The notes under the pieces were generated by a model. That model made no database searches and was not told the DNA's origin. It worked only from the letters and a program-made list of their open reading frames with translations. Both the position numbers and the translations under genes were made by a program. Positions 7,796 through 58,683 of a stretch of DNA of 64,000 nucleotides are shown here, in pieces. Origin of the DNA: Pycnococcus provasolii (taxonomy: Eukaryota; Chlorophyta; Pseudoscourfieldiophyceae; Pseudoscourfieldiales; Pycnococcaceae); NCBI GenBank assembly GCA_938743325.2, contig OW568865.1, positions 310,001 to 374,000 on the forward strand, in the 5' to 3' direction. Numbering within the stretch: the first letter of the stretch is position 1; each line of letters opens with the position of its first letter.

Positions 7796-8995
7796 TTACC
7801 AAAGTCTTGATGCGAGCAAGACGTCTTTGAAAGGCACGATGATGACACTCCGATGTTTACTACCAGGTGTGAGTACCCTGCCACCTCGTTTCATCACAAG
7901 ATTTGCCATGAACCGCGAGTATCCCCCGCCACCCTGCACAAACACCTTGGCACTGGTGGCAAAGGCGAAATCGTCGTCCGCATCCCTGATGCCGCGGTAC
8001 ACTGGACACACACCAAGGCGCCTCAAGTATGCCATCACGTGGTTGATGTATTTCTCACTCCACGCTATTGTGCTTGGATTTGATAAGTGACTCGGGTTCG
8101 CCACGATGGTAATGGTGCCCAGGTCTTTTAGTTCATCACGGATGGTGTCGTAATCTTTCTCGGTAAATTGATACTGCAGCTTTAGCTTATTACCCGACCG
8201 TAGTTTCGATGATATGCAATCGTTTTTCCAGCAGTCGCCTTTGGCGATGTCGCCGAGTCGCAAGTGCATCACCGCTTCCGGCCGTGGTTCTACCAGTGGG
8301 GTCACTTCATCCAGCACTTCCATGTTCGGATATGTGCCACTGTGTCGGTACGTGCGTACGTACGAGCACGCGATGCTATGGTTGAAACGAGGAGAAGAAC
8401 ATGGTCGAATTCCGTTGGGCAATGTAAACGCGTGCTCTGATTCCGCTCCTCTGTAAAATTTGACAATATCCCCAAGCTGATATTTATTTCTGTGCGTGGT
8501 TGATGACACGTTTGAGAACGTGATTGGTTCTTGATGTTGAGGACAGGCGTAAATTGCGTCACGGAATGATTCTTCCATTGTTGTTGCCGCCAGCGAGGCT
8601 GTTGTGTTGTTGGCATTGATGGTGGGCGTGCGTTTGAGCCCGACAACAACATCTTGTTCGCGACGGCGTGTCGTGCTGTTTTGTCGGAACACGGAAGCAC
8701 GCAGTCTTCGAACGTGACGTCGTGATTGCCAGTTTGTCGTTGGTGCAGATTGCGCGCGTTCATATTTTTTGTTGGTCGCAATGATTGAGATTTGTTGTAT
8801 GATTGTCACCAAGAATAAACCAAGCGCAGCGATGAGCACGGCGTCTTTGAGAAAGCACCATCGCACAAGCCGAAGCACGCATGAACGATGAGATTGAGCT
8901 GAACCACCACGACGAGAGACAGAGCTGCCGCCTCCACCAGGATGATGACGATGGTGATGGTGGTGGGACTGACGAGGTGGGAGCGAAGGCGCCAT
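7796..8995 (-). CDS. Type-II membrane glycosyltransferase-like protein, array copy 1 (fucosyltransferase-like end)
   Basis: 399 residues. Residues 1-50 form a His-rich, basic cytoplasmic tail, residues 51-72 a single TM anchor, and residues 73-139 an Asn/Thr/Arg-rich stem. This is the Golgi type-II layout. Residues 1-139 are nearly identical to copies 2 and 3 apart from short indels. From residue 140 the sequence is unrelated to those copies. It contains AVMHLRLGDIAKGDCW, which resembles the HxRxGD motif of fucosyltransferases, and near the end AKVFVQGGGGYSRFMANLV, seen in several algal and plant glycosyltransferase-like proteins. An enzyme that adds sugar to glycoproteins or polysaccharides is inferred; donor and acceptor are unknown. 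Its upstream region is the repeated block described separately. Confidence 0.65.
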   Translation of the reverse strand: MAPSLPPRQSHHHHHRHHPGGGGSSVSRRGGSAQSHRSCVLRLVRWCFLKDAVLIAALGLFLVTIIQQISIIATNKKYERAQSAPTTNWQSRRHVRRLRASVFRQNSTTRRREQDVVVGLKRTPTINANNTTASLAATTMEESFRDAIYACPQHQEPITFSNVSSTTHRNKYQLGDIVKFYRGAESEHAFTLPNGIRPCSSPRFNHSIACSYVRTYRHSGTYPNMEVLDEVTPLVEPRPEAVMHLRLGDIAKGDCWKNDCISSKLRSGNKLKLQYQFTEKDYDTIRDELKDLGTITIVANPSHLSNPSTIAWSEKYINHVMAYLRRLGVCPVYRGIRDADDDFAFATSAKVFVQGGGGYSRFMANLVMKRGGRVLTPGSKHRSVIIVPFKDVLLASRLW

Positions 8996-9002
8996 GGATC
9001 AA

Positions 9003-9258
9003 CTACTAAATGTTAGACTATAAATGGACTTGCAAACGGGTGACTCAAAATTCAAACAGTCGAAGAAAGAAAATAACAACGGACAGATTTCCGAAGAGTA
9101 ACGGTCGAAAGAGGGTTCCAAAATCCCCTTGAAAAATCAGAAATCAGAAATCAGAAATCAGAAATCAGAAATCAGGGGGAGGGAGGGAGAGTTCGAAATG
9201 GAAATGACAACAGACGAGTTCGTTCTTATTACCGACCGGCACCTAGCCCAGCCCAGCC
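9003..9258. repeat. Repeated promoter block, copy 1
   Basis: About 256 nt directly upstream of the array copy 1 start. It is nearly identical to 10737-10992 and recurs at 13051-13290. It includes six perfect AAATCAG heptamers at 9134-9175, a GGGA-rich patch and a short TATAAA on the + strand. It belongs to the duplicated gene unit. Confidence 0.85.
9134..9175. repeat. Six-copy AAATCAG heptamer array (promoter of copy 1)
   Basis: Six perfect head-to-tail AAATCAG units, about 140-180 nt upstream of the start at 8995. The same array with the same copy number is found at 10868-10909 and 13182-13223, so it predates or was homogenised across the triplication. Confidence 0.9.
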
Positions 9259-9263
9259 GCCGC

Positions 9264-9414
9264 TCACCAAGATTTTGTCCAAAGGTGCATTGCATAGACG
9301 TCGTTGTCGTTCTCGTACAGGTCCGCCTTGCACAACGTTCTATCCGTATGATCACATGGAAAAAATGTACGAGCAGGCAATGTAGTGAACGATGTATTTG
9401 GTGACGTCGTCATT
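9264..9414 (-). pseudogene. Remnant of the glycosyltransferase C-terminal end (GT32 tail)
   Basis: This segment is nearly identical to the last ~150 nt of the full-length array copy 3 (10998-11148), including its stop codon. In copy 2 it is cut off from its gene by an internal deletion that shifts the frame and stops translation at 9410. It therefore lies as an untranslated relic in the 3' region of copy 2. Confidence 0.85.
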
Positions 9415-10729
9415 CCTGTAGTCCAAAGAAATCGTCGACCGGATCCACCTCGCATGGACCTCGCATGAATGGTTCGACGCTCGGATCCACCTTGGCTCTC
9501 TCAGCAATAGCCTGTTTATCACTTATGATTCTTCGATTCCATGCCCAAGCTGACCTTCTTTTGCAATTCCATGTGGAGGACCACGCGTACTCCGGATGGC
9601 GTATTAAAAGCGGCTCCACGGCGTAAATATTCCATCGCTCATTTCTGGCCAAGTTGTACCATTCCTTGTCGGGCGGAAAGGTCGTGCGGTCTTTGCCTTC
9701 CTCAAAAAGCCTCAGAACCGCATGCATGGCACTTGCGCTCGGCAGTCCAAATCCGTATGCGCCAAACGAGTGTGACACGCGAACTAGTTTCAAACGAGTT
9801 GAGAGGTGCGTGTCGACGTCGCTCCTGTACCTTGTACGAAAGGCATGTGCGCCAAAGAGGATGACAAGAGCCTCGGCAGGCGAGTTGGCGAATAGCTTGT
9901 CGTGTTCTTGGCAAAACGTGTGGTCTTGTTCGAAGTCTCGAGCGTCATCTTCCAGGAAAATGACCTGCTCGAAGCCATCCTCAAGGGCTGCACGGAGACA
10001 ACGTGCATATGCAGTCATCAAGCCAACACCGCTTCCAAGTTTTTCTGTCAGTACGCCACGGCACTCGTGAAACTCTACACCCTTACAGTATTTGTTCCAA
10101 TATGCTCGAAAGCGAGTCAACCTTCCCCCTGATTCTTTTGGAGCGCCAGGTACACCGTCGAGACTTACGACATAGTAGCGTCGACGAGACGGGCGAAAAG
10201 GTAAAGTATCACTTGAGTCAGATAAGATGACCTCGCAGTCATCACAGTCAGCAGCAGTGATAAGATGAACAGGTTCACTTAGTTCGCCGCTTGTGCTCAA
10301 TTCCTTCTTGTCGGTCGCAATGATTGAGATTTGTTGCGTTGTTGCCGCCAGCGAGGCTGTTGTGTTGTTGGCATTGATGGTGGGCGTGCGTTTGAGCCCG
10401 ACAACAACATCTTGTTCGCGACGGCGTGTCGTGCTGTTTTGTCGGAAAACGGAAGCACGGAGTCTTCGAACGTGACGTCGTGATTGCCAGTTTGTCGTTG
10501 GTGCAGATTGCGCGCGTTCATGTTTTTTGTTGGTCGCAATGATTGAGATTTGTTGTATGACAGTCACCAAGAATAAACCAAGCGCAGCGATGAGCAAGGC
10601 GTCTTTGAGAAAGCACCATCGCACAAGCCGAAGCACGCGAGCAAGACGAGAGACAGAGCTGCCGCCTCCACCAGGATGATGACGATGGTGATGGTGGTGG
10701 GACTGACGAGGTGGGAGCGAAGGCGCCAT
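9410..10729 (-). CDS. Type-II membrane glycosyltransferase, array copy 2, GT25-like domain only
   Basis: 439 residues. Anchor (TM at residues 43-63) and stem match copies 1 and 3. The catalytic part shows RRRYYVVSLDGVPGA, QVIFLEDDARDFE and SHSFGAYGFGLPSA, which fit GT25-type (LPS/procollagen) glycosyltransferases: an LEDD motif for metal and donor binding and a later SHSFGAYG-like motif. Compared with copy 3 the protein ends at DDFFGLQE, where a 592-nt deletion (absent bases correspond to 11149-11740 of copy 3) removes most of the second, GT32-type domain and brings a stop codon into frame. The GT25-like domain is complete, so a working single-domain enzyme is possible. Confidence 0.75.
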   Translation of the reverse strand: MAPSLPPRQSHHHHHRHHPGGGGSSVSRLARVLRLVRWCFLKDALLIAALGLFLVTVIQQISIIATNKKHERAQSAPTTNWQSRRHVRRLRASVFRQNSTTRRREQDVVVGLKRTPTINANNTTASLAATTQQISIIATDKKELSTSGELSEPVHLITAADCDDCEVILSDSSDTLPFRPSRRRYYVVSLDGVPGAPKESGGRLTRFRAYWNKYCKGVEFHECRGVLTEKLGSGVGLMTAYARCLRAALEDGFEQVIFLEDDARDFEQDHTFCQEHDKLFANSPAEALVILFGAHAFRTRYRSDVDTHLSTRLKLVRVSHSFGAYGFGLPSASAMHAVLRLFEEGKDRTTFPPDKEWYNLARNERWNIYAVEPLLIRHPEYAWSSTWNCKRRSAWAWNRRIISDKQAIAERAKVDPSVEPFMRGPCEVDPVDDFFGLQE

Positions 10730-10736
10730 GGATCAA

Positions 10737-10992
10737 CTACTAAATGTTAGACTATAAATGGACTTGCAAACGGGTGACTCAAAATTCAAACAGTCGAAGA
10801 AAGAAAATAACAACGGACAGATTTCCGAAGAGTAACGGTCGAAAGAGGGTTCCAAAATCCCCTTGAAAAATCAGAAATCAGAAATCAGAAATCAGAAATC
10901 AGAAATCAGGGGGAGGGAGGGAGAGTTCGAAATGGAAATGACAACAGACGAGTTCGTTCTTATTACCGACCGGCACCTAGCCCAGCCCAGCC
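10737..10992. repeat. Repeated promoter block, copy 2
   Basis: Nearly identical to 9003-9258. It lies between the start of array copy 2 (10729) and the 3' end of copy 3 (10998), with the AAATCAG array at 10868-10909. It must act as both the promoter of copy 2 and the 3' flank of copy 3. Confidence 0.85.
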
Positions 10993-10997
10993 GCCGC

Positions 10998-13043
10998 TCA
11001 CCAAGATTTTGTCCAAAGGTGCATTGCATAGACGTCGTTGTCGTTCTCGTACAGGTCCGCCTTGCACAACGTTCTATCCGTATGATCACATGGAAAAAAT
11101 GTACGAGCAGGCAATGTAGTGAACGATGTATTTGGTGACGTCGTCATTTGTGACCAGAACATTGGGCCAGTCAGATTTAAGTCGTATGTCGCATTCGGAT
11201 GATTTTGAAGACGTCTTTGGGTGCGAATCAGTGCTGCCAATGCCACGGCTTGCATTTCAACGTTTTCTCGGGGGGAGCCAATCACTGCATTGCAAGCGAC
11301 GGTGCAACGACCGCCGTCTCTTGGACGTTCACACACTGTGAATGGCGCGTTCCGTAATTTCGACGGCAAAGGGCGCAGCGGAACAATGTCGGTGTCGAGG
11401 TAGACGCCCCCATACCGTGCAATCACATGATATCGTAAAATATCGGAGGCCCACGCTGCGGTACGAAGTTTCTTAAGAACACGGAAGACGGACGGAAAGT
11501 GGTGTTGGGCCAGGGCATTGGTCCATAACACCACGTACCAGCGTGGGTGCAGTCGCTTCCATTTGGAAATTCGTTGCAGAATATGTTCCGGTATGGGCGG
11601 TTGCTCCTGATCCCAATCAACGGAGAGCCAAATGAAATGGAAAGTCGTTGGAATCTGGGTCACGTCATACGCGACGGCGGTATCAATCGCCCACGACTTC
11701 CATGGGATAGTTGTATCAACCACCAATGAGGGGGGATGGTCCTGTAGTCCAAAGAAATCGTCGACCAGATCCACCTCGCATGGACCCTGGGATGGTTCGA
11801 CGCTCGGATCCACCTTGGCTCTCTCAGCAATAGCCTGTTCATCACTTATGATTCTTCGATTCCATGCCCAAGCTGACCTTCTTTTGCAATTCCATGTGGA
11901 GGACCACGCGTACTCCGGATGGCGTATTAAAAGCGGCTCCGCGGCGTAAATCTTCCATCGCTCATTTCTGGCCAAGTTGTACCATTCCTCGTCGGGCGGA
12001 AACGACGTACGGTCTTTTCCCTCCTCAAACAGCCTCAGAACCGCATGCATGGCACTTGCGCTCGGTAGACCAAATCCGTATGCGCCAAACGAGTGTGACA
12101 CGCGAACTAGTTTCAAACGAGTTGAGAGGTGCGTGTCGACGTCGCTCTCGTACCTTGTGTGAAAGGCATGTGCGCCAAAGAGGATGACAAGAGCCTCGGC
12201 AGGCGAGTTGGCGAATAGCTTGTCGTGTTCTTGGCAAAACGTGTGGTCTTGTTCGAAGTCTCGAGCGTCATCTTCCAGGAAAATGACCTGCTCGAAGCCA
12301 TCCTCAAGGGCTGCACGGAGACAACGTGCATATGCAGTCATCAAGCCAACACCGCTTCCTGGTTTTTCTGTCAGTACGCCAGGGCACTCGTGAAACTCTA
12401 CACCCTTACAGTATTTGTTCCAATATGCTCGAAAGCGAGTCAACCTTCCCCCTGATTCTTTTGGAGCGCCAGGTACACCGTCGAGACTTACGACATAGTA
12501 GCGTCGACGAGACGGGCGAAAAGGTAAAGTATCACTTGAGTCAGATAAGATGACCTCGCAGTCATCACAGTCAGCAGCAGTGATAAGATGAACAGGTTCA
12601 CTTAGTTCGCCGCTTGTGCTCAATTCCTTCTTGTCGGTCGCAATGATTGAGATTTGTTGCGTTGTTGCCGCCAGTGAGGCTGTTGTGTTGTTGGCATTGT
12701 TGGCGTGCGTGCGTTTGAGCCCGACAACAACATCTTGTTCGCGACGGCGTGTCGTGCTGTTTTGTCGGAACACGGAAGCACGCAGTCTTCGAACGTGACG
12801 TCGTGATTGCCAGTATGTCGTTGTCGCGCGTTCGTATTTGCTGTTGGTCGCAATGATTGAGATTTGTTGTATGACAGTCACCAAGAATAAACCAAGCGCA
12901 GCGATGAGCAAGGCGTCTTTGAGAAAGCACCATCGCACAAGCCGAAGCACGCGAGCAAGACGAGAGACAGAGCTGCCGCCTCCACCAGGATGATGACGAT
13001 GGTGATGGTGGTGGGACTGACGAGGTGGGAGCGAAGGCGCCAT
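10998..13043 (-). CDS. Two-domain membrane glycosyltransferase (GT25-like plus GT32-like), array copy 3
   Basis: 681 residues. TM anchor at residues 43-63. The GT25-like domain spans about residues 150-430 with LEDD at 256-259 and SHSFGAYGFG at 316-325. A second domain from about residue 440 contains TTFHFIWLSVDWDQE, WYVVLWTN, AAWASDILRYHVIARYGG and the DXD-bearing GGVYLDTD at residues 545-552. This is the signature of GT32 (OCH1/sugar-binding DXD) enzymes. The protein therefore carries two putative active sites, as bifunctional polymerising or sequential Golgi glycosyltransferases do. The segment QQISIIATDKKE (129-140) repeats the end of the TM segment, suggesting a recombination joint. It is the longest, intact member of the array; substrates are unknown. 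Confidence 0.8.
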   Translation of the reverse strand: MAPSLPPRQSHHHHHRHHPGGGGSSVSRLARVLRLVRWCFLKDALLIAALGLFLVTVIQQISIIATNSKYERATTTYWQSRRHVRRLRASVFRQNSTTRRREQDVVVGLKRTHANNANNTTASLAATTQQISIIATDKKELSTSGELSEPVHLITAADCDDCEVILSDSSDTLPFRPSRRRYYVVSLDGVPGAPKESGGRLTRFRAYWNKYCKGVEFHECPGVLTEKPGSGVGLMTAYARCLRAALEDGFEQVIFLEDDARDFEQDHTFCQEHDKLFANSPAEALVILFGAHAFHTRYESDVDTHLSTRLKLVRVSHSFGAYGFGLPSASAMHAVLRLFEEGKDRTSFPPDEEWYNLARNERWKIYAAEPLLIRHPEYAWSSTWNCKRRSAWAWNRRIISDEQAIAERAKVDPSVEPSQGPCEVDLVDDFFGLQDHPPSLVVDTTIPWKSWAIDTAVAYDVTQIPTTFHFIWLSVDWDQEQPPIPEHILQRISKWKRLHPRWYVVLWTNALAQHHFPSVFRVLKKLRTAAWASDILRYHVIARYGGVYLDTDIVPLRPLPSKLRNAPFTVCERPRDGGRCTVACNAVIGSPRENVEMQAVALAALIRTQRRLQNHPNATYDLNLTGPMFWSQMTTSPNTSFTTLPARTFFPCDHTDRTLCKADLYENDNDVYAMHLWTKSW

Positions 13044-13050
13044 GGATCAA

Positions 13051-13290
13051 CTACTAAATGTTAGACTATAAATGGACTTGCAAACGGGTGACTCAAAATT
13101 CAAACAGTCGAAGAAAGAAAATAACAACGGACAGATTTCCGAAGAGTAACGGTCGAAAGAGGGTTCCAAAATCCCCTTGAAAAATCAGAAATCAGAAATC
13201 AGAAATCAGAAATCAGAAATCAGGGGGAGGGAGGGAGAGTTCGAAATGGAAATGACAGACGAGTTCGTTCTTACCGACCGGCACCTAGCC
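13051..13290. repeat. Repeated promoter block, copy 3
   Basis: The third copy of the upstream block, with small internal losses near 13255-13275. Heptamers lie at 13182-13223. Similarity stops near 13290, which marks the right border of the tandem array. Confidence 0.8.
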
Positions 13291-13335
13291 CAGAAAGATC
13301 CCTAACCCTTACTACAGAAGCACGTACATGTGCCG

Positions 13336-16164: not shown

Positions 16165-19100
16165 TTACATCGCAGCACCCGCAGCCTCCAAGCTCGCTCG
16201 TGCACGCGCCACCACGGCGCTGGGAACGCCTGCAAGGCGCGCGACGTTGACTCCATAGCTCGAAGGGCAGAGCCCCTCCACGAGCTTGTACAAAAATGTA
16301 ATTTGCTCCTCACCATCCGCGCCGTCCGCGACACGGCAAGCCATGTGACGTGTGCCAATTTCATTCATCTCGCCGAGCTCGCTGGCAGCATCGTGGAAGT
16401 GCGTCGAAAAGAGGCAGCGGGCGCGCACGCGCGTCGCCAGGTACCTGGCAACCGCGAACGCCACCGCGCTTCCATCGGCGGTGCTCGTTCCACGCCCAAG
16501 CTCGTCGAGCGCAACGAGCGAGCGAGACGTCGCGCGGCGCAGAACCGAAGACGTCTCCTGCAGCTCCACCATGAACGTGCTCTGCCCACTCACGAGGTTG
16601 TCTCGCGCGCCCATGCGAACGAGAATGTGGTCCACTGCCGTGAGGCGCAGGCGAGAGCATGGAACGGCGCATCCAATCTGCGCGTACAGCACGCAGAGGC
16701 ACACGCTCCTCAGAAGTGTGGACTTGCCTCCCATATTCGGGCCGGTGAGCAGAAGGAAGCGAGGCTGTGCAAGGTCGACGCTGTTCGGAACGTGTCCCGC
16801 GCCGCAGCACGGGTGCCTCATCGACGTCGACTGGAACACTGCAGCATCCTCCTCGCCGCCCTTTTCTCCGTCAGCAAAATCGGGAACGCACACAGGGCCG
16901 TCCATTGCCATGGCGTCACTCGCCTTTGCGAGCGCACTGAGCGCGTCGAGCTGCGCACAGGCGTCGCAGGCAGCCTCCCACACATTTTGGAAGCTCGCAA
17001 ACACGGAGACGAGCTCATTGAGCACCGCCTTCTTCACCTCCTCATTTTGGGATTCCGAGGCTTCGTGGCGGCGCAGCAGCTCGATGATGGCATCGTTGTA
17101 GAATCGACTAACCTTCTGCGTCTGCGTCGTCTTCGTCCACGAAGATGGAACCTTTTTCACAAATTCCACGGGAACCTCGAGCTGGTGAGAGTCCTTGTTG
17201 ATTGACGCGAATCGAACGGGAACGTTTTTGCCTAGCACAGCGCGCGCATTCGCGAGCTCCTCCTGCAGCAGAGCCTCCACTTCCGCCGACTCGGCATTCG
17301 CCGATTCGCGCAGCGCGCGCAGCCTGCGGGCGTCGACACCCTTTGCAGCCGCGGCCGCTTCGCCGCCTTCCTGCAGGATGTCGGGATGGAGCGTGACGTG
17401 ACCGTCCGACTCCGCCCGACTCCAATCGAACAGAGTGTGCATCGCCTCCAACGCGTCAGCAAGCGTAGCGCCGAACGCCTGGACGCACTCTGACAGCGGA
17501 AGCGGAAGCGCGTCGAGGCCCTCGCCGCCGCTCGCACACATTCCCTGCAGCAGCTCGCCCACAGCCCTGGTCGCCTCGAGGGCACGCAGCGTCGCGACGA
17601 GCTGGCATGTCCTCTTCTTCATCATATCCTCGTACAGCACGACGTGGCCGGCATCGCGTCCCGCGCCCGAGCCAATGCTGAGAGCTCGGCTCACCATACG
17701 CCGCAGCTCTCCAGAGTCGCGCAGAACGGCGTAGAGAGAGCGCGCATTGGACGACGACCCTCCACTGTCGCGGCGAAGCAGGCTGACGGCGGCGTGGCGC
17801 TCTCGCGCGTCGGCGGCCCGCGCGAGAGGACGGCACAGCCACGAGCGCAGGAGCACCTTGCCCTGGCTTGTTGCACACTCGCGACTCAGCTTTGCGAACG
17901 TCGTGCCTGTCAGCCCACCATCCTCGTTCTCGAGCACCTCGAGCGCCCCGAGCGCGGCGGCGTCGAGCGAGAATGTCGGCGCACAGCTCGTCGGTGACAC
18001 CGCGGCACCGTTGGAGGCATTCGAAGCTGCAGCGGCGGCGGAAGCAGCCGCCGCCGCGAGCATTGCAGACTGATTGGCAGCTGAATCATCCTCACCAAGG
18101 TGGCACAGAGGCAGATTGCCCAGACGGCACGTTGGAAGCACGCGCTTGTCGAGCAGCATGTCGCGCAGGTACTGCACAGCACCTCCTAGGACGCACAAGC
18201 TCGCGATTGCGGCGGCATCGCCTTTCGAGGCGGAGGCATGCAGCTTCTCAACAAATGCGACATTCTCTTTCGAGAAGCCAAAATCCTCCCCCTTCTCTAG
18301 AAGCCCAACCTTGAGCGCGGTGTGCGCGGCATCCGCATCCCACATATTTGCACCCCGTCCTGCGGCGGCACGCGTCGCACTCAGCATTGGCGAAGGGTGA
18401 ATTTCCAGGCTTGCGAGACGTCGCGCAGAAGCAGATCGTCCACCCTCGTCCTCGAACAGCGGGCGCGTGACGAGCTCGGCAGGACGCCTCTCCTGAAGCA
18501 GCGTCTTGAAGCTCGCTCGGCTCGCGGCATCGTCGATTGCGGACGATACGTGCACAGCTCCGGTGGAGGCGTCCACCAAACACACGGCGTACAGCACACC
18601 AGGCTGTCCGCCAGCAGCCCTCGCGGGCGTGTTCGACTCATGGTACACGCAAAGCAGGCAGTTTTCGTCGAGGTCAGCACCCCCAGCGGGCATGGACGAG
18701 CTCTGCGATCCACCCGCGGCGGCGGCGTCGTCGCCACCCGCCGATGCGCCGCCGCCGCCGCCACGGAGGCGCTTGCCGGCGAGGTCGGAACCCATGAAAG
18801 TTCCCTTGGTCAGAATTGAAACCGCCTCGCGGTTCACCACCATGCATTGCTTGGTTCCCTTGGGCCGCATCGCGTTCCGCGCCTTGAGCATATCAGGTGT
18901 CTCCGTTTGCTCCACGACGACGACGCGATGTCCCAGGCGCACAAGCTGCTCGGCGTACCGCGGGTACGCCTTCTCCGGAAATCCGCAGTGCGGCTGATCG
19001 CCCTTCATGTACAGCAAGCCAAGGTCACGAACGCCCGTGTGGCAGTCCATCTCGAACATCTCGTAGAACTTGCCCATCTTGAACAGGTGCACGGCGTCGA

Positions 19101-20169
19101 AATCTTTCGACTTGAACGTCCACCACTGCTGCTGGCCGGGTGAGGTTTTATTATCCTGGAAGAAGCGCTTCAAGTCCGGCTCATACAGCGTGCGCGCGTC
19201 AAAGTCACTGTCAGCCACGGTGCGTCCATTTGCATCCTTGCGCCGCTTCGGATCTAGCAGCCATTTTCCAAAGAGGTTCGTCTCACGCGCCAAGAATCGC
19301 TCCTCTCCGCACGCCATTTCTGCAAGCTTTTCCTTCGCCTCAGCAGTCGACGGCGGCGTTGGCCGCGGCGCACTCGCCCCCACGATCGAGCTTCGGTTTG
19401 CCGGTGCCGGTGTGCGTGCGGAGTTGGGCGATGGTGCCTTGAGGTTGAAGTTTGCAAGCTGCTTCTTTGGGGCGGCAGAAGCTTTTGCTGGCGGCGTAGA
19501 CTTGGCACGTTTCCTCGGTGGCGGCTCCTCCGACAACTCCTCCGAGACGTCGTCGTCATCAGATTCGTCGTCATCAGACTCTTCTTCTTCTTCGTCTTCG
19601 TCGTCGGACGCATCGTCGTCGTTGTCGTCGTCGTCGTCGTCGATCACCATCCGCCTGCGTTTTTGAACGGAGGCGACAGCCGCCTTTCGCTTCGACCGCG
19701 TCGCCGTCGTCGCCACCCGCTTCACCTGCTTGATTGCCTCGTCGTGTTCATCTTCGTCGACGTGCATGCGAGCCGGTGCCTCAGGCGCCGGCGGTGTTGC
19801 TTTCGGGGGCGTTGGCACAATCGTGCCATCTTCGTGGGACCTTGCGGGATCCACCACCTGATCCTCGGTGGCTGGTTTGCTTCTGACTTTGTTTGCTGAG
19901 GGCGGCACCACCTCTTTTGTCGTTGGAGGAGGAGGAGTGTGAGCTGACACAGCATTAGCGCGTACTTGAACCACAGCATTCACCGATGATGGCGCCGCTG
20001 GCGCATTAACACCTGCACTACCCCCTGAAATAGCCCCAGACCCCAAGGCAGAGGATGGCGTCTTTTTGATGAAGAACGCGCTGATGGATCGTTGCTTGAG
20101 GAGTGAGCCGCCCGTGGGTCCCATGGAGGTGCCTCCCGTGCCGCCTCCTGACGCAGGCTTCGGAGGCAT
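16165..20169 (-). CDS. MSH6: DNA mismatch repair protein MSH6
   Basis: 1334 residues from ATG 20169, close to plant MSH6 length. The reading frame runs on to 20385 but that part crosses a telomeric repeat and is rejected. Residues 26-33 (QRSISAFF) are a PCNA-interacting PIP box, as at MSH6 N termini. A long acidic, Lys/Pro-rich linker follows, without a visible PWWP or Tudor domain. The mismatch-binding motif KFYEMFE lies near residue 367. The ATPase domain has Walker A GPNMGGKSTLL near residue 1140, the signature GQSTFMVELQETSSVL, Walker B LDELGRGTSTADG near residue 1225, and FSTHFHD. It is expected to pair with MSH2 to recognise base-base mismatches and short loops in the nucleus. Confidence 0.96.
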   Translation of the reverse strand: MPPKPASGGGTGGTSMGPTGGSLLKQRSISAFFIKKTPSSALGSGAISGGSAGVNAPAAPSSVNAVVQVRANAVSAHTPPPPTTKEVVPPSANKVRSKPATEDQVVDPARSHEDGTIVPTPPKATPPAPEAPARMHVDEDEHDEAIKQVKRVATTATRSKRKAAVASVQKRRRMVIDDDDDDNDDDASDDEDEEEEESDDDESDDDDVSEELSEEPPPRKRAKSTPPAKASAAPKKQLANFNLKAPSPNSARTPAPANRSSIVGASAPRPTPPSTAEAKEKLAEMACGEERFLARETNLFGKWLLDPKRRKDANGRTVADSDFDARTLYEPDLKRFFQDNKTSPGQQQWWTFKSKDFDAVHLFKMGKFYEMFEMDCHTGVRDLGLLYMKGDQPHCGFPEKAYPRYAEQLVRLGHRVVVVEQTETPDMLKARNAMRPKGTKQCMVVNREAVSILTKGTFMGSDLAGKRLRGGGGGASAGGDDAAAAGGSQSSSMPAGGADLDENCLLCVYHESNTPARAAGGQPGVLYAVCLVDASTGAVHVSSAIDDAASRASFKTLLQERRPAELVTRPLFEDEGGRSASARRLASLEIHPSPMLSATRAAAGRGANMWDADAAHTALKVGLLEKGEDFGFSKENVAFVEKLHASASKGDAAAIASLCVLGGAVQYLRDMLLDKRVLPTCRLGNLPLCHLGEDDSAANQSAMLAAAAASAAAAASNASNGAAVSPTSCAPTFSLDAAALGALEVLENEDGGLTGTTFAKLSRECATSQGKVLLRSWLCRPLARAADARERHAAVSLLRRDSGGSSSNARSLYAVLRDSGELRRMVSRALSIGSGAGRDAGHVVLYEDMMKKRTCQLVATLRALEATRAVGELLQGMCASGGEGLDALPLPLSECVQAFGATLADALEAMHTLFDWSRAESDGHVTLHPDILQEGGEAAAAAKGVDARRLRALRESANAESAEVEALLQEELANARAVLGKNVPVRFASINKDSHQLEVPVEFVKKVPSSWTKTTQTQKVSRFYNDAIIELLRRHEASESQNEEVKKAVLNELVSVFASFQNVWEAACDACAQLDALSALAKASDAMAMDGPVCVPDFADGEKGGEEDAAVFQSTSMRHPCCGAGHVPNSVDLAQPRFLLLTGPNMGGKSTLLRSVCLCVLYAQIGCAVPCSRLRLTAVDHILVRMGARDNLVSGQSTFMVELQETSSVLRRATSRSLVALDELGRGTSTADGSAVAFAVARYLATRVRARCLFSTHFHDAASELGEMNEIGTRHMACRVADGADGEEQITFLYKLVEGLCPSSYGVNVARLAGVPSAVVARARASLEAAGAAM

Positions 20170-20337
20170 CAAGGAGAGCACAGCAAGGCACAGCAAGGCC
20201 AGGCACGAAGCAGGCCAAAGAAAGCGGAAGTGAAATTGTGGGAGGGAAGGGAAGGGGGAAGGGGGAAGGGGGAGGGGGACACAAAGAGACTGAGTTACGG
20301 TTTCGCGCGCGCTTTGCCCAGACAAAGTTCGAATCAT

Positions 20338-20366
20338 AACCCTAGACCTAACCCTAACCCTATTCG
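20338..20366. repeat. Interstitial telomere-type repeat upstream of MSH6
   Basis: About three CCCTAA units on the + strand with one CCTAGA variant. In the sense of MSH6 they read TTAGGG, about 170-200 nt upstream of the start at 20169. Confidence 0.8.
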
Positions 20367-20436
20367 AATACCCTATCGTAATCACAGCTGTGTTTTTCTT
20401 TTCGTCGGTCGGTCGGGTTCAAACTTTTTACACGTC

Positions 20437-33928: not shown

Positions 33929-35038
33929 ATGGCGCACCACCCGGCTCTGCCCCCTCCGTCCGGCGACCGCGCACTCAAGCGCATCGCCGCGACGTGGACA
34001 CCACGCGTGTCAATGTCCGACGACGCGCACGTGGAACAACCACACCTAGCGCGCATCGTCGACCGACTCGCCATTAGGGGAGTCACCATGGCGTCGGACG
34101 TCCTGTGCCGATCGTGGCTCGACATCGCGCACCTCGCAGACGTCGACCGAACGACGGCGAAACTGCTGCAAACGGAAGTCGCACAGGCAATATGCCCCAG
34201 ACCGCAGTGCGCGCTCGACATCGTCAAGGGCAAGAGGATCACAATACCAACGCAAATACCCACGCTCGACGACAGCCTGAGGGGGGGCATTCACGTCGGA
34301 CACGTCACAGAACTCGTCGGGCCTGCAGGCGCAGGCAAGACGCAGTTCTGCCTAAGCCTGGCAGCCACCGCGGCGGCACCAGCCACACACAACGGGCTCG
34401 AAACGGGCGTGCTGTACGTAGACACGGAGCGGCGATTCTCTGCGAGCCGCGTGCTTGAAATTGCCCGCACGAGGCTCAACGTCACAGACCACCAAGACGC
34501 CACGTCGCTCGCGGATCGCATCGCCGTCGTGCGCACGGAAAATATTGAAGACCTGCGAAGCCGAGTGGCATGGCTCCAGACAAGCCTCGGCGCGGTGGAA
34601 GGTGGCGTGCGCCTCGTCGTCATCGACAGCGTCGCAGCCATGGCGCGCTGCTCGTCGAAGAACGACGCGGGGATTCCTGACACGGAGACGCTCGGCGTGC
34701 TCGCAGCGTCTCTCAAGAGGCTTGCCGACGTGTTCGGCGTCGCGGTCGTCGTGACGAATCAGGTGGCGTCGCGAGCGACGAGCAGCGCTCGCGTTGGCGC
34801 GTGCGACGACGAGGACATTGTCGCGGCTCTGGGAATTCAGTGGGCACACGGCGTCAACGTGCGAGTTGCCATGGACTTTCAGGGTGCACTCGCGGAGCAG
34901 CGTGCATGCACCGCGGCGACAGGATTGGAGTTGCACCGAGGACGACAGCGATGGCTTGAGGTGGCGAAGTGTCCACATGCGCACTGCGCACGTGTTGCGT
35001 ATCGAGTGACGGAGCGTGGCGTCGAGGAGATTGTGTGA
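33929..35038 (+). CDS. RAD51B: RAD51 paralogue RAD51B
   Basis: 369 residues. The order of motifs matches plant RAD51B: helical N-terminal domain; IPTLDDSLRGGI; VTELVGPAGAGKTQFCL (Walker A, residues 131-138); VLYVDTERRFSASRVLEIA; RLVVIDSVAAM (Walker B, 229-234); VAVVVTNQV; then VAALGIQWAHGVNVRV and the terminal WLEVAKCPHAHCARVAYRV. The tract before the Walker A (ICPRPQCALDIV) also matches the RAD51B linker. RAD51B acts in the BCDX2 paralogue complex that helps RAD51 load during homologous recombination. A Cys/His-containing insertion near the end is unusual. It converges on the flavoprotein gene with a 166-nt gap. Confidence 0.88.
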   Translation: MAHHPALPPPSGDRALKRIAATWTPRVSMSDDAHVEQPHLARIVDRLAIRGVTMASDVLCRSWLDIAHLADVDRTTAKLLQTEVAQAICPRPQCALDIVKGKRITIPTQIPTLDDSLRGGIHVGHVTELVGPAGAGKTQFCLSLAATAAAPATHNGLETGVLYVDTERRFSASRVLEIARTRLNVTDHQDATSLADRIAVVRTENIEDLRSRVAWLQTSLGAVEGGVRLVVIDSVAAMARCSSKNDAGIPDTETLGVLAASLKRLADVFGVAVVVTNQVASRATSSARVGACDDEDIVAALGIQWAHGVNVRVAMDFQGALAEQRACTAATGLELHRGRQRWLEVAKCPHAHCARVAYRVTERGVEEIV

Positions 35039-41549: not shown

Positions 41550-41598
41550 CCGAACCCGAACCCGAACCCTAACCCTAACCCTAACCCCGAACCCTAAT
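41550..41598. repeat. Interstitial telomere-type repeat with CCCGAA variants
   Basis: CCCGAA units grade into three CCCTAA units and back to CCCGAA and CCCTAA. In the sense of the PAF-AH-like gene they read TTAGGG/TTCGGG, about 85-130 nt upstream of its start at 41466. Confidence 0.85.
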
Positions 41599-54148: not shown

Positions 54149-54982
54149 CACCAGCTTCCACTACCCTGGGCCTGGGAGCAGGGGCCGGACGGACGGACTG
54201 GGAGGGGGACCCCAACCACTTCAATGCCCTTCCCTTCCCCCTTCCCTTCCCCTTCCCATCACTTCCCCACTTCACCGGACAGCCGGACGGGACGGGACGG
54301 GCTTCAAGCTTTCAAGGTGTGTGCCCGCTCATCAAGGCTCACGCTCAAGCTCTCGCTCAAGGCCTCAAAACCAAAACGCCGTTTCTTGGATGGAAACTTG
54401 GTGGCCCCATCACTTGCCATCCTGCTTTGAAGTTTGAGCTTTCAGCAAAACCCGTGAAACCGTCTTTGAGCTTTCCCGTAAAGGCTTGATTCTTACCGGC
54501 AACCGGCCTCTTCTCTTCGCCTCTCTTCGCTCTCCGTTCTACGATTTCGTGAAGTGAAGTGGGGGAGGGCCTGAGCTGGGCCTGAGGGACATCTTTGAGG
54601 CTCTGCTCAAGAGGCTCTGCTAAAGTTTACGGTAGAGACTCGGTTTATGTAGACACGGCTCATCCAGAGAAAGGAGAATGAATGTGCAACGCGTCGCGTG
54701 AATGGTGACTGGTGAGGTGCACCCTTCTGTCGTCACCGGTTCTCGCAGCCAGTGAGTGAGCCATCGGGCTGTCAGTGCCATGGCCGTTAAAAACCCAAAG
54801 GAGAAACGTGATGTCAAGCAAGCTCTCTCAATCATGTTTACCATGTCATGGCCAAGTGATGGACATGGCGCGATGAAAGTGATTAGGGTTAGGGTTAGGG
54901 CTATCCCGTTGCGCACAATTTGAACATCAGCGATTAATTAAGTTATTTTATCGTTGTGGTACAGTACCTTTAAAAACAAGGA
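54149..54982. other. Intergenic region, partly repetitive, with telomeric motif
   Basis: 834 nt. The CFAP43 side is rich in CCCTTCCCCTTCCC repeats (54225-54260). CTCAAG/GCTTTGAGC-type repeats follow (54300-54480). A TTAGGG array lies at 54883-54901, about 85-100 nt before the next ATG. No gene is supported. Confidence 0.55.
54883..54901. repeat. Interstitial telomere-type repeat (TTAGGG)3
   Basis: Three perfect TTAGGG units in sense orientation to the secreted protein gene starting at 54983. Confidence 0.85.
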
Positions 54983-58402: not shown

Positions 58403-58683
58403 GGATTGATATGCCTGCCCTTCAAGGTACGACGACAGGTGACAGGAGGAAGGACGGACGACACGTGTTCTTAGCACTATGAATTCGGCGCCTAACCCTA
58501 ACCCTAACCCTAACCCTAACCCTAACCCTAATCCGGAGTCTTCCCTTATAAGGAGCCCCAGTCTAGCTAGGGGATCCCCTTGTTGAACCAAAGATCCACC
58601 CGTTTTGCTTTTGGGACTTTTCCCACCTACTTTTCCCCTCCGCTTTTCATTCCTCGCCGGCATAGTTGGTACCTCTCATTTCT
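58403..58683. promoter_or_regulatory. Bidirectional promoter containing a 7-unit telomeric array
   Basis: 281 nt separate the divergent starts of the F-box-like gene (58402, -) and the exonuclease (58684, +). Seven CCTAAC units (58491-58532) lie about 90-130 nt from the former and 150-190 nt from the latter. No other motif is obvious. Confidence 0.65.
58491..58532. repeat. Interstitial telomere-type repeat, 7 units
   Basis: Seven uninterrupted CCTAAC hexamers, the longest perfect telomeric array in the window, placed inside a divergent promoter. Confidence 0.95.

Follow-up and report, generated by a model that had tools for sequence, protein, structure and literature searches.

A three-gene array in Pycnococcus provasolii as a probable site of a genome-wide family built on reused upstream and anchor modules

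The question raised by the array

Three adjacent genes on chromosome 5 of the green alga Pycnococcus provasolii CCAP190/2 begin almost identically and end in different catalytic parts. They lie at positions 7796 to 13290 of a 64,000-nucleotide stretch (contig C5, bases 310001-374000), and this whole stretch is called the window below. Are these genes an ordinary tandem family, or is one 5' module being placed in front of different enzymes? The original prediction, made from the sequence of the window, favored the second possibility and proposed that catalytic ends are swapped onto one promoter-plus-anchor cassette. We consider it likely that the array belongs to a modular family spread over the genome, in which putative expression and targeting modules are shuffled at the DNA level onto carbohydrate-modifying enzymes.

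The CCAP190/2 assembly (32,333,900 bases, 46 contigs) was searched with parts of the array. Loci are named by C and the contig number, with a or b for separate loci on one contig. The genome match counts (13, 15, 7, and 20) are lower bounds, and protein matches were taken at E ≤ 1. Protein searches of other strain and environmental sequences gave 11, 6, and 8 proteins, 13 of them different (P0004 to P0016). The strain NIES-2893, with an assembly of 43 scaffolds and 22.7 Mb (PMC8209157), was taken as the source of the PPROV_ proteins.

A shared 5' module in three genes

The array consists of three minus-strand frames, namely, copy 1 (7796-8995, 399 amino acids [aa]), copy 2 (9410-10729, 439 aa), and copy 3 (10998-13043, 681 aa). 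All three contain a common 300-nt block of upstream DNA and first codons at 100% identity (8908-9207, 10642-10941, and 12956-13255), and their upstream similarity extends for about 250 nt (8996-9251, 10730-10985, and 13044-13293). Chance is excluded as the source of this similarity, as the 3,716 distinct 25-mers of the array are all absent from the rest of the window, on both strands. The predicted sharing of upstream DNA, tail, anchor, and stem is therefore confirmed. The coding part of the module, here called cassette A, comprises residues 1-139 of copy 1 (8579-8995; a His/Gly tail, a signal anchor near residues 54-72, and a stem), 1-131 of copy 2 (10337-10729), and 1-128 of copy 3 (12660-13043). 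Copy 1 diverges from copies 2 and 3 after residue 139 (SLAATT), exactly as described from the window. Copies 2 and 3 each contain the peptide QQISIIAT twice, once at the anchor and once where the cassette ends.

The N-termini of all three copies show a hydropathy peak of 2.29 to 2.31 within residues 46-72 and none above 1.6 past residue 130. Net charge is +2 or +3 over the 15 residues before the peak and +1 or +2 after it. As expected, these values fit a predicted signal anchor with a positive N-terminal side, followed by a stem, as in type II Golgi glycosyltransferases.

Catalytic identities of the three copies

Behind cassette A, copy 1 carries a catalytic module of its own (7796-8578), copy 2 an LEDD-type domain, and copy 3 an LEDD-type domain (11739-12659) followed by a GT32-like end (10998-11738). 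The latter matched PF04488 (Gly_transf_sug) at residues 485-562 (E = 9.4e-13; 49.1 bits, cut-off 23), in agreement with its earlier assignment. The other two assignments were not supported by profiles. The HxRxGD motif of copy 1 presumably marks it as fucosyltransferase-like, and we take the LEDD motif of copies 2 and 3 to be GT25-like, both being readings of a motif. In a Pfam scan, copy 1 had no match and copy 2 had one (E = 0.26). Neither profiles nor PDB sequences gave a fucosyltransferase match for copy 1, including GT11, and searches of Pfam, NCBIfam, and PDB gave the LEDD region no substantial match, GT25 included. Two predicted structures reached a mean pLDDT of 41.5 (copy 1) and 42.3, and a Foldseek search with both returned nothing at E ≤ 0.001, the models being too poor for this to count.

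No bacterial or archaeal relative of the copy 1 module was confirmed among 70 stretches found by pattern. Likewise, a virus origin of the modules was rejected, as viral contigs gave 109 and 121 pattern stretches of which none was confirmed by protein, although the narrow search patterns make this rejection weak. Cassette DNA had no exact match in the viral contigs.

Cassette A is found at loci on four other chromosomes

The cassette protein had at least 13 matches in its own genome, three of which are the array genes. Strong matches outside the array were found on C24 (twice), C7, C2, and C23 (E of 3e-69 to 4e-19), and the others were one internal repeat in C2 and weaker matches at C18, C16, C5:411800, and C39 (E of 3.5e-8 to 0.04). 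The corresponding DNA search gave at least 15 pieces, some of them short. Cassette A loci thus span C2, C5, C7, C23, and C24, that is, the array and four other chromosomes.

The partners of the cassette differ among these loci. Cassette A is followed by a Sulfotransfer_2 domain at C24a (24.8 bits, cut-off 22), by an HtrL_YibB domain (40.3, cut-off 24.1) and then a copy 1 type module at C7, and by a region with a sub-threshold GT11 match at C2 (15.7, cut-off 23.9). The GT47 domain at C23 (72.6, cut-off 33.4) is in a different frame from the cassette, perhaps because of a short intron or an indel. About 50 cassette residues are kept at C24b, where the anchor has been lost and a hydrophobic stretch of the gene's own is present; its partner has a sub-threshold Sulfotransfer_3 match (17.6, cut-off 27). 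The proposal that different catalytic modules stand behind one upstream-plus-anchor cassette is thus supported genome-wide.

The limits of the homology were compared at the DNA level. Upstream DNA common to the array, C24a, C24b, and C7 starts at TACTCTTCGG, 105 nt before the start codon (8996-9100, minus strand, in copy 1), and a TATA-like stretch was recognized by eye inside this core. Homology starts 98 nt before the start codon at C2 and about at the start codon at C23. Sequence contexts beyond the 5' limit differ, except within arrays and at C7, where about 25 nt of array-like DNA are followed by C24b-like DNA. The 3' limits vary among loci. C7 and C24a share 358 nt at 99.4% identity, made up of the sulfotransferase tail and the intergenic DNA upstream of the cassette. 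As this block unites the C24 sulfotransferase tail, intergenic DNA, and cassette, it was copied as DNA.

At one weak match (L011, C18:470037), 56 nt are identical to a GT8 gene at C5:411689, and a frame with a DDE_1 endonuclease match lies nearby.

Catalytic modules behind other anchors

The copy 1 module had at least seven matches in the genome: itself, C6 (83%), C8 (68%), C7 (64%), a piece at C25 (63%, one stop), and two weak matches at C8:811437 (with stops) and C31. At C6 and C8, the module stands behind other anchors; that of C8, called anchor B below, is out of frame with the module, and P0009 is an intact relative. The module of copy 1, whose cassette is that of copies 2 and 3, has 87% DNA identity to that of C6, and the copy 1 type module of C7, which shares its cassette with C24, has 89% DNA identity to that of C8. 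By these identities, cassette and module similarities disagree at copy 1 and C7.

Other partners were also found apart from cassette A. A relative of the C24a sulfotransferase (C6:399201-400646, 86 to 87%) has a different N-terminus, and partial copies of the HtrL and GT11-like partners are present at C7:643700 and C6:1018674, respectively. C7b was also considered as the state that preceded an insertion of a copy 1 type module into HtrL. This reading is disfavored relative to a deletion in C7b, because the tail in common extends the module in the way seen at C8 (by eye).

A second anchor and moving stem blocks

The GT8 gene at C5:411689 (B1) starts with a different anchor (MRPKANPGT...). A genome search with this anchor gave at least 20 matches, B1 included. 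In nine of them the alignment starts at the first or second residue of the query, and these carry anchor B; the remaining 11 were stem-only, cassette A, or weak. Anchor B loci were found on C5, C8, C10, C14, C20, and C40, and their partners include GT8 (twice, in B1 and its tandem neighbor B2), CAP59_mtransfer, Methyltransf_24, GT17, and the copy 1 type module at C8. Compared with B2, B1 has an extra 153 bp in its stem. This block aligns with stem DNA of C7 (154 bp, 99.4% identity) and has 1-nt overlaps at both ends. Stem blocks, on this comparison, move on their own.

A gene near B1 (L072, C5:409521) has FkbM and further methyltransferase matches, a third anchor, and part of the C7/B1 stem block. 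Two divergent adjacent anchor B genes on C10 (L070 and L071, C10:496711-497460) have C-termini that look alike by eye, and the one scanned, as a cut frame, had no Pfam family above the cut-off. On C40, a cut anchor B of about 43 residues (L073, C40:9988) heads a 3,113-aa open frame with polyketide synthase domains within its first 544 residues.

How the array arose

Past the common upstream block, copies 1 and 2 are each preceded by the 3' end of a copy 3 type gene; the stretches 9064-9414 and 10798-11148 are 100% identical over at least 351 nt. Copy 2 corresponds to a copy 3 type gene from which 592 bp of the GT32 end are missing, leaving 151 nt as a relic. The relic (9264-9414, minus strand) has the same sequence as 10998-11148 and lies downstream of copy 2, the last bases of which it overlaps. 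The deletion join has a 1-nt overlap, and copies 2 and 3 differ by this domain loss and about 4% substitutions.

A search of the genome with the LEDD domain matched only copies 2 and 3. P0015, a 957-aa relative of copy 3 with a different anchor, contains LEDD, a sub-cut-off sulfotransferase match, methyltransferase, and GT32. In the alignment, copy 3 passes from the LEDD end to the last methyltransferase residues and then to GT32, so that it looks like a P0015-type gene that has lost its middle. P0013, derived from an mmetsp transcript, is a cassette-LEDD fusion with QQISIIAT only once and without the intervening stem of copies 2 and 3. The N-terminus of C6, which carries a copy 1 type module, is distantly similar to cassette A (score of 77; 500 shuffles gave a mean of 30.1, a standard deviation of 5.3, and a maximum of 51). 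This points to a copy 1 type gene as the possible parent of cassette A, in which case the pairing in copy 1 may be ancestral and not a swap.

Comparison with other strains

The array and its relatives are partly represented in independent sequences. P0004, on a 13.5-kb contig, shows copy 1, and P0012 (PPROV, 462-kb contig) is identical to C24a at 533 of 547 residues, so the cassette-sulfotransferase fusion is common to both strains. A different pairing was found in P0011 (P. provasolii, NCBI, 594-kb contig), in which a copy 3 cassette precedes a Methyltransf_12 domain. All 78 residues corresponding to copy 3 residues 37-114 are identical, and the short stretch before them is absent in copy 3 and has a similar form in copy 1. 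In CCAP190/2, the P0011 methyltransferase is found at C30:231264-232016 (100% over 251 aa) with a different N-terminus; the other three matches are weak. The pairing of cassette and catalytic module thus apparently differs between the two strains. Of the module exchange originally proposed, the form that one NIES-2893 gene model supports is this apparent difference between strains; within the array, copies 2 and 3 differ by domain loss, and copy 1 may have kept its ancestral pairing.

Two shorter sequences also show other combinations. P0005, on a short contig, is C7-like over residues 1-100 (100/100) and copy 1-like over residues 96-140 (45/45). In P0014, a C23-type cassette and stem are joined to a GT31 domain (PF01762, 6.2e-14); in CCAP190/2, the match at C23 is confined to the first 57 of the residues searched, and one weak match lies at C11. 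P0005, P0010, P0014, and P0016, all on contigs of 1.3 to 2.3 kb, could be assembly chimeras, and P0016 (E = 0.39) is not significant alone.

Selection on modules and anchors

Ratios of nonsynonymous to synonymous substitution (dN/dS) were obtained by a simple Nei-Gojobori count without significance tests. Copy 1 modules gave 0.55 (versus C6), 0.34 (versus C7), and 0.29 (versus C8), C7 versus C8 gave 0.66, and copy 2 versus copy 3 gave 0.37. Cassette A ranged from 0.33 to 1.10 over 15 pairs. For cassette B, four of ten pairs were undefined, having no synonymous change, and the other six gave 0.93 to 3.01. By these counts, some catalytic modules are constrained, and anchors and stems weakly so.

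A proposed mechanism and its rivals

We propose that a 5' module, made up of some 105 nt of DNA before the start codon, the signal anchor, and a low-complexity stem, has been copied at the DNA level and joined to unrelated carbohydrate-modifying modules. These include glycosyltransferases and a sulfotransferase and, as predicted by the gene model of the other strain, a methyltransferase. Tandem and segmental duplication that includes intergenic DNA, of the kind seen in the array and at C7, would spread the cassettes, and break repair by end joining or template switching would make the joins. Four resolved junctions have overlaps of 1, 1, 1, and 3 nt, and the C24a/C6b junction overlaps by about 1 nt by eye, a pattern that homologous exchange would explain less well than end joining or template switching. 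Stems presumably tolerate such joins, and a shared 5' module would give new enzymes similar expression and Golgi placement. The outcome could be a turnover of cell-surface glycans, and the diversifying role first suggested for the array may be read in this sense.

A broader version of this proposal is an open-ended combinatorial system, in which two or more anchor cassettes and mobile stem blocks are continually recombined with carbohydrate-modifying modules. Each strain would have its own combinations, and its repertoire of surface-glycan enzymes would thus vary rapidly, perhaps under virus pressure. We regard this extension as doubtful.

Several observations weigh against the modular family as we propose it. 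The strain difference is drawn from a single gene model, P0011, and the methyltransferase compared with it lies on C30, which is probably chromosome 30, one of two (30 and 39) with reported half coverage (PMC11130579). Gene models of NIES-2893 may also err, as P0007, which is identical to C6 at 294 of 300 aligned residues spanning 341 of C6, lacks the anchor segment. The five junctions, of which one was read by eye, do not suffice to identify a repair pathway. With dN/dS of 1.05 for the C24a sulfotransferase module versus C6b, 0.92 for GT8 of B1 versus B2 (four differences), and values near 1 in several cassette pairs, selective constraint on some members may be slight. Finally, there are broken or partial members (the frames at C8 and C23; C7b; the pieces at C6:1018674, C25, and C5:813817), and a polyketide synthase is among the partners of anchor B.

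An ordinary tandem family is possible, and we give it limited credence: copy 1 would keep an ancestral anchor-module pairing, with only the LEDD/GT32 gene having captured the cassette. The distant similarity of the C6 N-terminus to cassette A and the different anchor of P0015 agree with this history, which leaves unexplained both anchor B and the occurrence of cassette A in front of sulfotransferase, HtrL, and GT11-like parts. It is also compatible with the modular family, as its first step.

Rather unlikely, in our view, is genome churn, in which segmental duplication and illegitimate joining produce random chimeric genes that are mostly neutral or dying and have no selected role. The broken copies, the dN/dS values near 1, and the polyketide synthase would be expected from such a process. 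However, apart from that polyketide synthase, all partners with above-cut-off Pfam matches are glycosyltransferases, sulfotransferases, methyltransferases, or HtrL; dN/dS is 0.29 to 0.66 for modules of the copy 1 type and for the domains of copies 2 and 3; and the sulfotransferase fusion has been kept in two strains.

An origin at the RNA level, by reverse transcription with template switching that fused the 5' ends of cassette mRNAs to other mRNAs, is improbable. The constant 5' limit, which would be the transcription start, in cassette A copies from separate contexts, the varying 3' limits, and the long uninterrupted frames are consistent with it. However, the C7/C24a block and the array repeats include intergenic DNA, so these copies were made at the DNA level, and the TATA-like stretch lies within the 105 nt.

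Highly similar repeats are a known assembly hazard. An assembly artifact or misjoin, a concern strengthened by the half coverage of two chromosomes, is nevertheless very improbable given the reported 444-fold HiFi coverage, Hi-C scaffolding, and QV of 58.2 (PMC11130579) and the independent sequences of copy 1 and the C24a fusion.

Other features of the window

The G+C content of the array (50.4%) is below that of all 118 sliding windows of the same size in the 64 kb (mean, 57.4%), and 12 of 14 other cassette or module loci measured are below 57.5%. An MSH6-like mismatch repair gene (16165-20385) lies about 3 kb from the array, and a Rad51-like frame is present at 33929-35038. Interstitial TTAGGG/CCCTAA runs occur at 1918-1950, 41567-41590, 54883-54905, and 58496-58540. 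Such repeats near some cassette limits were considered and dropped, since they are also found elsewhere in the window. The TTAGGG unit was present at three of four contig ends inspected (both C5 ends and the start of C24, but not the start of C2).

Comparison with known systems

A close likeness is to Schistosoma japonicum, in which genes with a similar core promoter and signal sequence are dispersed in the genome; the promoter and targeting module there, like the putative one here, has been spread at the DNA level (PMC3434034). Shared upstream and targeting sequence of this type was found here at the array, C24a, C7 (105 nt), and C2 (98 nt). In the S. japonicum account, the partners are reported to have no homolog or similar domain elsewhere, the 3' homology ends uniformly at a retrotransposon, and repeats flank the copies (PMC3434034), whereas the partners here are named enzyme families, two cassettes and shuffled stems occur, and a strain difference in pairing is indicated. 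In P. provasolii the 3' limits have no uniform end at a retrotransposon, and flanking repeats were not searched for systematically.

Chromosome 19 of Ostreococcus tauri, another marine green picoalga, also has duplicated and shifted glycosyltransferases near methyltransferases, and a role of surface glycans in virus resistance has been proposed (PMC5082852). In the sections of that report available to us, whole genes on one chromosome are concerned and no shared anchor cassette is described (PMC5082852). A single outlier chromosome is not seen here, where cassette A loci lie on five contigs and anchor B loci on six, the array itself being low in G+C.

Chimeric genes arise by partial duplication and exon shuffling, in which a copied 5' part is joined to other coding sequence. 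Compared with such genes in general, two 5' modules are reused here, mostly on one functional class. Type II Golgi glycosyltransferases consist of a short cytosolic tail, a signal anchor, a stem, and a catalytic domain; here, anchor and stem are nearly identical across unrelated catalytic families. As a rule, the shuffling of domains and 5' ends has to be reconstructed from events long past, while here fresh-looking events with before-and-after pairs and an apparent strain difference are present in a small culturable alga, in genes that likely set the cell surface. The acquisition of new expression and targeting parts by genes, and the evolution of algal surface glycans through enzyme recombination, thereby become testable.

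A search of the open-access literature found no earlier report of a cassette-shuffled gene family in Pycnococcus. Dispersal of a promoter and signal sequence in S. japonicum (PMC3434034) and duplicated, shifted glycosyltransferases in O. tauri (PMC5082852) are already known. As far as our literature searches show, what is new is the reuse of two anchors over many carbohydrate-enzyme families, together with stem blocks that move and a pairing that apparently differs between strains.

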